From: Gemmobacter lutimaris
GTDB taxonomy: Bacteria; Pseudomonadota; Alphaproteobacteria; Rhodobacterales; Rhodobacteraceae
DNA length: 64,000 nt
Direction of reading: 5' to 3'
Assembly (NCBI RefSeq): GCF_003570715.1
Contig: NZ_QXXQ01000004.1
Coordinates: forward strand, 124,001-188,000
This document shows positions 24,961-43,182 of this stretch, piece after piece (positions within the stretch are counted from its first letter, which is position 1; the number at the start of each line of letters is the position of its first letter). The translations under genes and the position numbers were made by a program. Below the pieces are notes generated by a model. That model saw only the letters and a list, made by a program, of their open reading frames with translations. It was not told the DNA's origin and searched no databases.

Positions 24961-26073
24961 ATGACCGCGACCGAGCCGCTGTTCCGTCCTTTCCAGCTGA
25001 AGGGGCTGGAGCTGAAAAACCGCATCGTCATGGCGCCGATGACGCGCGACATGGCCCCCGAAGGCGTGCCGGGCGCGGCCAATGCCGAATATTACCGCCG
25101 CCGGGCCGAAGGGGGCGTGGGGCTGATCCTCAGCGAGGGCACGGTGATCGACCGCCCGGCCTCGCGTAATCTGCCGAACATCCCGTTCTTCCACGGTGAC
25201 ATGGCGCTGGAGGGCTGGCGCGGCGTGGCCGAGGCGGTGCATGGCGCGGGCGCAAAGATCGGGCCACAGATCTGGCATACTGGCTCGACCAAGGGCGGCC
25301 CGTGGAAGCCCGAGGCGGAGGTCGAGAGCCCTTCTGGCCTGCTGGCGCCGGACAAGCCGCGTGGCCGCGCGATGACCGAAGAAGACATCGCCGATACCAT
25401 CGCGGCCTTTGCCCGCGCCGCCGCAGATGCCAAGCGGATCGGCATGGATCTGGTCGAGGTGCATGGCGCGCATGGCTATCTGATCGACCAGTTCTTCTGG
25501 CAAGGCACCAACCTGCGCGACGACCGCTGGGGCGGGGCAACCCTGCCGGAACGCAGCCGCTTTGCCGTGGAAATCCTGAAGGCTGTCCGTGCTGCCGTCG
25601 GGCCGGATTTTCCGGTGCTGCTGCGCGTCAGCCAGTGGAAACAGCAGGATTACGGTGTGAAACTCGCCGCCTCGCCACAGGAAATGGAAGCCTGGCTTGG
25701 CCCGCTGGTCGAGGCCGGGGCTGACGTTCTGCATTGCTCGCAGCGCCGGTTCTGGGATGCGGAATTCCCGGAAATCGACGGCGAGGCCGGGTTGAATTTC
25801 GCGGGCTGGGCCAAGAAATTGACGGGCGCACCGACGATCAGCGTGGGGTCGGTGGGGCTTGGCGGGGCCGAGTTCCTTGCGGCCTTCCGGGGCGAGGGCG
25901 CCGGGGCCGCACCGCTGGGCCAGTTGCTTGACCGCATGGCGCGCGACGAGTTCGACCTGATTGCCGTGGGCCGCGCGCTGATTTCCGACCCGGACTGGGT
26001 TCGCCATGTGCAGGCAGGCGAGACCGATGCGCTGCGCGGCTTTGACGCCCGCGATCTGGCCGAACTGGTCTGA
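24961..26073 (+). CDS. Old Yellow Enzyme family NADH:flavin oxidoreductase
   Basis: This 370-residue FMN enzyme has the OYE barrel: LFRPFQLKGLELKNRIVMAPMTR at the N terminus, QIWHTGS, the His pair in VEVHGAHGYLIDQFFW, and the phosphate-binding end FDLIAVGRALISDPDW. OYE members reduce activated C=C bonds of enones or nitro compounds with NAD(P)H. The ATG at 24961 has GGAG 8 nt before it; GTG at 24952 is the alternative. It stands alone between the tRNA and a strong terminator. The physiological substrate is unknown. Confidence 0.9.
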   Translation: MTATEPLFRPFQLKGLELKNRIVMAPMTRDMAPEGVPGAANAEYYRRRAEGGVGLILSEGTVIDRPASRNLPNIPFFHGDMALEGWRGVAEAVHGAGAKIGPQIWHTGSTKGGPWKPEAEVESPSGLLAPDKPRGRAMTEEDIADTIAAFARAAADAKRIGMDLVEVHGAHGYLIDQFFWQGTNLRDDRWGGATLPERSRFAVEILKAVRAAVGPDFPVLLRVSQWKQQDYGVKLAASPQEMEAWLGPLVEAGADVLHCSQRRFWDAEFPEIDGEAGLNFAGWAKKLTGAPTISVGSVGLGGAEFLAAFRGEGAGAAPLGQLLDRMARDEFDLIAVGRALISDPDWVRHVQAGETDALRGFDARDLAELV

Positions 26074-26082
26074 TCCGACGCG

Positions 26083-26119
26083 ACGGGAAAGCCGCAACCG
26101 GCGGCTTTCCCGTGTTTTT
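26083..26119 (+). terminator. Intrinsic terminator after the OYE gene
   Basis: A perfect 13 bp stem ACGGGAAAGCCGC/GCGGCTTTCCCGT with a 5 nt loop is followed by G and five T. It begins 10 bp after the stop. Confidence 0.92.
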
Positions 26120-40565: not shown

Positions 40566-41918
40566 TCAAAGGTCGAAGCAAAGCTGACCGCCGGGGTGGG
40601 TGCGGCTACCTTCGATCAGTGCGGAGAGGACAGGACGGATGCGACGGGGCGGCGGGCTTGCGCAAGTGCGTCGGGCTGCCGTCAGGCGGTCGCGGGCGGC
40701 GCGGGCCGCGCTGGCGGGGTCTACCACCGGCTCGGGGTAGCGGCGGCCCAGCAGACCAGGGGCACCGGACCATTTCCATGGTTCCTGCAACAGCGCATCG
40801 GGGACCGGGGCGAGTTCGGGCAGCCAGCGCCGGGTGAAGCTACCGTCGGGGTCCAGCGTCTGACCCAGCCGTATCGGGTTGCAGATGCGCGGCGTGGTCT
40901 CCGCCAGACCGGCGTGGCGCCAGACCTGTGCCCAGTGGATCGACGGGGTGTAATCGGTGAACCGCCGGGCCAGCGCCTCGCCCGCCGACCGGGGATCGAG
41001 CGACAGGTGGTGCACCGCACAGCCGAGCACCATCGACCGCGTGGCATGGGGCAGCCAGCCTGTCGCGTTGAGGTAACGCAGGCAGGCGTCCAGATAGGGC
41101 AGGCCGGTTTCGCCCGCAGTCCAGGCGGCCAGTCGCGCGGCATCGCTTTCAGCGGTGGGGCGAGGGCGGGCAGAGGCGTCGCCATCGCCATATCGCACCG
41201 CAATCCGGGCCTGCGTGCCGCGCAGGGTGGCAATGGCTTGCGAAGGGGGGCGCCCGGCCAGTCGTGCCTCGATTGCCGCGGTGACTTCGGTGGCCGACAG
41301 CGTGCCAAAGGCCAGATGAGCGGACAGGCGCGAACTGACGCGTTCAGCCCCGGCGGGGGTATTGGACGAGGGGCGCCCAAGGGCGGCGCGGCTGGCCAGA
41401 AAACTTTCCAGCATCGTCAGCGCGGCCACGCGCCCGCCGCGCTGCCGGTGCGGGCAAGGGTCATCCGCCAGCCGCAAAGCGCGGGCAGAAGGCAGTGCGC
41501 CGGGTGATACGCCTTCAATCCCGCGCGCGATCAATGGTTCTGCCGGGGCATCGGCGGGCAGGGCCGTCCAGCGCAGGCCCGAGGCGCGTGCCCAGGCGGC
41601 CACACGCGATTCTGCCGCGCTGCCGCCCTGTTGTGTGACAATTTCGGTAATGCGATGGGCGCGCACCAGACGTTCCATCACCGTGACCGGATCGCCGACC
41701 CGAATCGCCAGCGGCAACCCTTGCGCGGCCAGCGCCTCGGTCAGATCGGTCAGGCTTTCGGCGCAGAAGGCCCAATGGCGGCCCGACCGATCCGGTCTGG
41801 CCCAATCGTCGGGGTCCACCACATAAAGCGGCAGAACCGGCCCGCGCGCCGCGGCGAAAGCCAGCGCCGGATGGGCCTCGTGCCGCAGATCACGGTTCAT
41901 CCAGATGAGAACATTCAT
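40566..41918 (-). CDS. Cryptochrome/photolyase family protein
   Basis: This 450-residue protein has the N-terminal Rossmann antenna domain ([29 protein letters not shown]) and the C-terminal FAD-binding domain ([48 protein letters not shown]). The usual [24 protein letters not shown] stretch is replaced by [23 protein letters not shown], so it belongs to a divergent branch; repair of cyclobutane dimers cannot be assumed. [14 protein letters not shown] is conserved. Signals for light or stress control were not found. It is divergent from the small-RNA candidate. Confidence 0.85.
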
Positions 41919-42099
41919 GGAACATTTCTAGCTCGCCACGCGGCGCCCGTCAAATGTCATGCAACGGGAAGGGTCATGCGGGCGCCGGCTGACGCCCGCG
42001 CATCCCTTTGTCCCCGACGGGCAGATTGTCGCCGAACCGGGCGGGAATTGTGGCGGAATTGAGGCTCTGACGCAGTCAAATCCCGGTGGTTTACTTATT

Positions 42100-42193
42100 T
42101 TGGGCGCATTTGGGGGGCAAACAGCCGAACAGTATGAGGCATTCCTCTACTGCTCAGCCTTGCCCTGTCGCCAAACGCGGCAGGGCTTTTTTT
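42100..42193 (+). ncRNA. Candidate small RNA with two hairpins and its own terminator
   Basis: In the 308 bp gap between the photolyase and LysR genes (both on the minus strand) the plus strand has a full intrinsic terminator with no upstream plus-strand gene. Before it, CAGTA-T-GAGG pairs with CCTCTACTG around a CATT loop (42130-42152), a 9 bp stem with a bulged T. A weak promoter (CTGACG at 42067, TACTTA at 42092) would start the RNA near 42100, about 94 nt. No coding frame of believable composition fits. I infer an Hfq-type regulatory RNA; the 5' end is uncertain. Confidence 0.6.
42162..42193 (+). terminator. Intrinsic terminator of the small-RNA candidate
   Basis: GCCCTGTCGC (42162-42171) pairs with GCGGCAGGGC (42177-42186) over a CAAAC loop with one G-T pair, followed by seven T. 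On the other strand the stem is followed by AAGG, so it works only for plus-strand transcripts and cannot serve the LysR gene. Confidence 0.9.
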
Positions 42194-42226
42194 CATGTCT
42201 TTTCAACAGATTCGCGATGTGCGGCC

Positions 42227-43126
42227 TCAGGTTGCCATCCGGCGCAGCACGCGGGTCAGGATGGCGGCGACGGCGACATGGGCGGGGGAGGGGCTTCGAT
42301 CGCGGGCGCGCAGCAGCGCCACCTCGCGCGCGATGTCGGGGGTGGTCAGTGCACGCGCCAAGATGGCGCGGGCATGCACAGCGGCCTTGGCATAGGCGGG
42401 CAGAACGGCAATCAGCCCCGCCTGTTCCACCAGCGCCAGCGCGGTATGGATCTGATGCACCTCCAGCGCCGGACGGTAGGGCTGGCCCGCGCTTTCGAAG
42501 CCCACCTCGGCCAGCAGGCGCAGCCCGCTTTCGCGCGTCAGCGCCACTTGCGGCTGGCCCGCGATCTGCGCCCATGTCAGCTCTGTCTGATCGGCGAGCG
42601 CATGGTCCGCCGCCAGAAACACCATCAGCCGGTCGCGCAGCACCGGGGTTACCACCACGCCCTCCTCGCCGGGCTGGAAGGTGCCAAGCCCCAGATCGGC
42701 GCGACCGTTGCGCACCTGCTCGACGATCGCATCGGTGCCCAGATCCTCGACCTGCAGCGACAGATCCGGGTGCTGCGCAGCGGTTTCGCGGAGCACGGCG
42801 GGCAGCACGGCGGCGGCCAGCAGCGGCGGCGCCGCAATCCGCAGCCGCCCGCGCCGCAACTGACCCAGATCCTGCACATTGCTGACCGCACGATCCAGTT
42901 CCGCCAGCACCACGAAGGCCGAGGCGGCAAAGGCCTCGCCCGCCTCGGTCAGATCGACGCGGCGGGTGGTGCGGTCGAACAGCCGAGCGCCCAACCCGGT
43001 TTCCAGATCGCGGATCGCCTGGCTCAGCGCCGGTTGCGTGGTGTTCATCCGCTCGGCGGCACGGGAAAAGCTGCCAAGCTCCGCCACCGCCTGAAAGCAT
43101 TCGATCTGTCGCAGGCTGGGCTTCAT
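42227..43126 (-). CDS. LysR family transcriptional regulator
   Basis: This 299-residue regulator has the N-terminal LysR helix-turn-helix (LRQIECFQAVAELGSFSRAAERMNTTQPALSQAIRDLE) and a periplasmic-binding-protein-like effector domain from about residue 90. The C-terminal region includes GLIAVLPAYAKA, a typical inducer-cleft strand. It lies 56 bp downstream of the aldehyde dehydrogenase gene on the same strand, so it may be in that operon or regulate it. The effector is unknown. Confidence 0.92.
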   Translation of the reverse strand: MKPSLRQIECFQAVAELGSFSRAAERMNTTQPALSQAIRDLETGLGARLFDRTTRRVDLTEAGEAFAASAFVVLAELDRAVSNVQDLGQLRRGRLRIAAPPLLAAAVLPAVLRETAAQHPDLSLQVEDLGTDAIVEQVRNGRADLGLGTFQPGEEGVVVTPVLRDRLMVFLAADHALADQTELTWAQIAGQPQVALTRESGLRLLAEVGFESAGQPYRPALEVHQIHTALALVEQAGLIAVLPAYAKAAVHARAILARALTTPDIAREVALLRARDRSPSPAHVAVAAILTRVLRRMAT

Positions 43127-43182
43127 CGCATGTCCCCTGGCTTATGAAAGCCCTGTATACATGCGATGAAGCCAATGGCCAA

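Follow-up and report, generated by a model that had tools for sequence, protein, structure and literature searches.

What does a strong plus-strand terminator end when no plus-strand gene leads into it? This question is raised by a 308-bp interval in the window, the 64,000-nt stretch of Gemmobacter lutimaris DNA that was analyzed here. The interval lies between a photolyase gene (40566-41918, minus strand; flank confirmed) and a gene encoding a LysR-type regulator (lysR; 42227-43126, minus strand; assigned by Pfam). Both neighbors are therefore oriented opposite to the terminator between them, as an earlier note on this DNA had described. The same note regarded the terminator and a hairpin just upstream of it as parts of a small RNA (sRNA) of the Hfq-dependent type, conceivably with a role in light or oxidative stress.

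The terminator and its upstream hairpin

The intrinsic terminator (42162-42193, plus strand) was located by a scan for stems followed by T runs and by RNA folding. Its stem arms, GCCCTGTCGC (42162-42171) and GCGGCAGGGC (42177-42186), form 10 pairs, including one G-U pair, around a 5-nt loop and are followed by a T7 tail (42187-42193). Folded alone, this structure reaches -20.6 kcal/mol (z -5.8). Upstream lies a second hairpin (42130-42152, plus strand; RNA fold) of nine pairs with a bulged T and a CATT loop (arms CAGTA-T-GAGG and CCTC-TACTG), which two extra pairs lengthen to 42127-42155. The two stems are separated by the 9-nt spacer CTCAGCCTT (42153-42161, plus strand). Both structures thus agree with their first description, which gave 10 bp with seven T for the terminator and 9 bp with a bulged T for the hairpin 9 nt upstream.

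The upstream stem is unusually stable (equaled by 1 of 200 shuffles), and the two-hairpin RNA as a whole (42126-42194, 69 nt; hereafter the intergenic element) reaches -32 kcal/mol (z -5.8), better than any shuffle. Stems of at least 9 pairs followed by T7 were absent from all 200 dinucleotide shuffles of the window. When stems of at least 7 pairs followed by at least five T are counted on both strands, 0.165 are expected per shuffle, versus two real ones in 64 kb. The other strong intrinsic terminator of the window (26083-26113) comes after a plus-strand frame that ends at 26073. The terminator of the intergenic element is genuine, far beyond chance and one-directional.

The statement that no coding frame leads into the terminator stands in part: no plus-strand gene extends into it, but long plus-strand open reading frames (41959-42885 and 42086-43147) cross the intergenic element. 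These are antisense frames (to lysR) of GC-rich DNA. A Pfam search of the plus-strand frames that run through or into the element gave no match, and a coding explanation was dropped on this ground. Among short frames that start in the 269-bp block described below and end before the element, the longest (41976-42062) would encode 28 aa rich in arginine; nothing supports it as a gene.

A consensus scan of the photolyase-lysR interval for sigma-70-type promoters found none. Hexamer scoring picks out weak promoter-like hexamers at 42067-42101 (plus strand), consisting of CTGACG-N17-TTTACT plus TATTTT (42096-42101). The top-scoring hexamer pair of 41957-42130 is equaled or exceeded by 12% of stretches drawn at random from the window, on a promoter matrix that was hand-written after the E. 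coli consensus and is only a rough guide for this organism.

Conservation of the element and the 269-bp block

Within the genus, the photolyase-LysR pair was found in one further genome, that of Gemmobacter caeni, the nearest relative with these flanks. Comparison of the two loci delimits a 269-bp block in G. lutimaris (41957-42225), in whose place G. caeni has 8 bp. Both stems are absent there, at the same locus and between the same flanking genes. The earlier note had stated that its proposal would be refuted if close relatives lacked the stems at this locus, and this result indeed counts against the sRNA reading. The block is either a gain in G. lutimaris or a loss in G. caeni, on a comparison of two genomes without an outgroup of the same synteny.

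In DNA searches that covered 101 relatives as well as 394 family genomes, the only matches besides the window were short and at chance level. A covariance model built from the single sequence found no convincing relative within the genus, and the covariance search of Rhodobacteraceae genomes that had been proposed earlier yielded no counterpart of the intergenic element. Among the genomes searched, the element is restricted to this species. Because it is not conserved in any relative, it carries no sign of selection.

Rfam, at gathering as well as relaxed thresholds, gave no family for the intergenic element. The alphaproteobacterial MmgR (suhB) RNA likewise consists of an upstream stem plus a terminator, and this sRNA family (RF00519; 77 positions) is similar to the intergenic element in these two features. 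Membership was rejected at 12.6 bits, versus a gathering threshold of 41, and an E-value of about 5. Higher-scoring suhB/MmgR-like candidates are located elsewhere in the genome; the best of them (contig C63, 79893-79972, minus strand), at 32.9 bits, also lies under the threshold of 41 and may be a diverged MmgR RNA. The window itself also contains a glycine riboswitch aptamer (RF00504; 16058-16159, plus strand; 57.4 bits).

Transcripts that the terminator may end

Our tentative answer, put forward with less than even confidence, is that the terminator ends a short, lineage-specific plus-strand non-coding RNA that is started within the 269-bp block. From the fold and the hexamers we infer a start just after the weak promoter-like site, which would give an RNA of roughly 42102-42193 (plus strand; ~92 nt). 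If functional, its likeliest role would be that of an orphan sRNA, with Hfq bound by the terminator stem and its U7 tail, and with the unpaired 5′ part pairing with mRNAs as putative targets. The genome contains an hfq gene (113 bits, above cut-off). An intrinsic terminator with a U-rich tail, as expected for an Hfq-dependent sRNA, is present in the form of the 10-pair stem and T7. Conservation in relatives, which is usual but not obligatory support for such an sRNA, was not found.

Two stems followed by a U tail had been taken as the shape of Hfq-dependent RNAs, to which this shape is not specific. The succession of stem, spacer, terminator and U tail is likewise found at the 3′ ends of ordinary mRNAs in this family, for example after ccrM, and is thus not by itself indicative of Hfq. 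What remains of the sRNA proposal is the orphan plus-strand terminator, the upstream stem and the presence of hfq, set against the lack of conservation.

In Rhodobacter sphaeroides, 38 of the 79 listed sRNAs are classed as orphan (PMC8625941), so that this class is common in the family. Like these orphan sRNAs, the intergenic element lies between genes, has its own terminator and contains no frame of a known family; it would also resemble them in its length of ~90 nt, provided that its start is correctly placed, and in the presence of hfq in the genome. The orphan sRNAs of R. sphaeroides were predicted or confirmed with RNA data, whereas the intergenic element is known from sequence and has no clear promoter or relative. 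Given that orphan sRNAs are numerous in R. sphaeroides (PMC8625941) and that hfq is present here, the candidate is still a reasonable one. A more specific version seems unlikely to us, in which the element is a newly arisen sRNA gene that is expressed, acts in trans and occurs in this species alone, having been gained with, or having escaped a deletion of, the 269-bp segment. If transcribed, the intergenic element would add another orphan sRNA to a genus that has been little studied and, since G. caeni lacks it, would illustrate on a small scale how an sRNA was recently gained or lost. The origin of such a young sRNA could be dated against G. caeni. Taken alone, the element answers no open question.

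Alternatively, the terminator may serve to keep plus-strand transcription that is spurious or antisense from entering lysR at its 3′ end, in which case any short RNA would be a by-product without function in trans. The position of the terminator is consistent with such a role, as lysR, which runs the opposite way, ends 34 bp away and the terminator points into this gene; the missing clear promoter and the missing conservation fit as well. However, a guard of this kind does not need a stable second stem, yet the upstream stem stands out in the shuffling comparison. We consider this alternative possible, if somewhat on the unlikely side.

Another explanation is that the 269-bp block is the remnant of a plus-strand gene or of an acquired segment, with the two hairpins as its former 3′ end. 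The presence of the block here and of 8 bp instead in G. caeni agrees with this, as do the G+C content of its right half (mostly 0.47-0.57, versus 0.65 for the window) and the two-hairpin layout of genuine mRNA 3′ ends in the family. On the other hand, the plus-strand frames, which lack Pfam matches, preserve no protein remnant. Searches for the block in plasmids and phages gave no DNA match, as was the case for the family genomes, and a search of viral contigs for exact core patterns was negative. Terminal and flanking repeats were not convincing either, and for this reason an insertion-element origin was rejected. Altogether, a relic of this type appears improbable; together with the guard role, it ranks as a serious rival of the short-RNA reading.

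The plus-strand RNA could also act in cis, by altering the stability of a read-through RNA from lysR to photolyase or its extension towards photolyase. The window scan found no strong minus-strand intrinsic terminator between the two genes, so that the plus-strand RNA would find its full complement in such a read-through RNA. Against this, the photolyase start has a regulatory box of its own, so read-through may not matter, and we regard an effect in cis as very improbable. The box has the form GTTC-N7-GTTC and lies over the photolyase start codon (41909-41923, minus strand); it is found at the same photolyase position in most relatives. We take it to be the alphaproteobacterial LexA box, and its presence suggests that the photolyase is under SOS control. 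A conserved LexA-type box belonging to the photolyase gene itself is a simpler account of its control, for which the intergenic element is not needed. The proposed role in light or oxidative stress was based on the neighborhood only and is not supported; in the sister species G. caeni, the same gene pair occurs without the element.

Comparison with the RNA element after ccrM

A two-hairpin RNA element that is conserved across Rhodobacteraceae was observed just 3′ of the ccrM stop codon; ccrM encodes the cell-cycle DNA methyltransferase. Its consensus reads TTACCGCCGGTGCC-T-GTGG, a loop, CCAC-GGCAC, AACCTTG, GCCCCGCC...GGCGGGGC and a T run. A similar element was found at nearly every ccrM 3′ end from 29 relatives, with a diverged form in Gemmobacter; that of the present genome lies directly after ccrM on contig C12 (308576-308641). 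Within the ccrM element, both partners have changed in 16 of 19 base pairs, which greatly exceeds the shuffled and slid controls, in an alignment that also contains the intergenic element and was fitted to the model structure, which favors covariation. A model of five ccrM elements gave high-scoring matches that adjoin ccrM in all 40 cases fetched. With a larger model of 67 ccrM sequences, 270 of 384 family genomes yield a match at E ≤ 1e-4, where adjacency to ccrM is not implied for each match.

Rfam at its thresholds gave no match for four ccrM element loci, nor did a relaxed Rfam search for the ccrM locus of this genome. In the open-access literature, covered mainly at the level of titles and abstracts, no description of a ccrM 3′ element was found. 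The element may be a 3′-UTR-derived RNA of the cell-cycle methyltransferase gene, and we regard it as a more valuable lead than the intergenic element.

The intergenic element and the ccrM 3′ end share a stem with a bulged U, a short spacer ending in CCUUG, a GCCC-type terminator and a U tail. When the single-sequence model was run against the 394 family genomes, the best four matches besides the window were located directly 3′ of the ccrM stop codon, on the same strand. With the five-sequence model, the intergenic element scores 38.3 bits and the ccrM element of the same genome 38.8 bits, with a next-best score of 26.8 bits in this genome; in six other genomes, second matches away from ccrM reach 33.8-36.6 bits. 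With the 67-sequence model, the score of the intergenic element falls to 32.6 bits, whereas ccrM elements that were left out of the training rise to 44-51 bits. Terminators not associated with ccrM score about 22-37 bits with this model, including one chance terminator at 37.0 bits.

The sequence motifs point in the same direction as the larger model. A CGCC motif at the first stem is present in 76 of 76 ccrM elements and CGCCNGTG in 74 of 76, while the intergenic element has neither at this place. Unlike the ccrM 3′ end, the intergenic element is not located beside ccrM, lacks the invariant CGCC and the GUG motif, and scores in the background. With a non-ccrM background of up to 36.6 bits for the five-sequence model in other genomes, a 67-sequence score within the non-ccrM range and the CGCC-N-GUG motif missing, it was rejected as a member of the ccrM 3′ RNAs. 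The two have a common layout without demonstrable common ancestry. That the intergenic element is a displaced copy of the conserved ccrM two-hairpin RNA, as the four ccrM matches and the near-equal five-sequence scores might suggest, is almost certainly wrong in view of its background score in the larger model, the absent CGCC and the ccrM element that this genome already holds.

One of the matches of the five-sequence model away from ccrM lies at the end of contig C1 of G. caeni (571464-571530, minus strand). Here, a similar terminator is found beside phage-lysis-like genes, among them an amidase-like frame, in surroundings that are probably a prophage.
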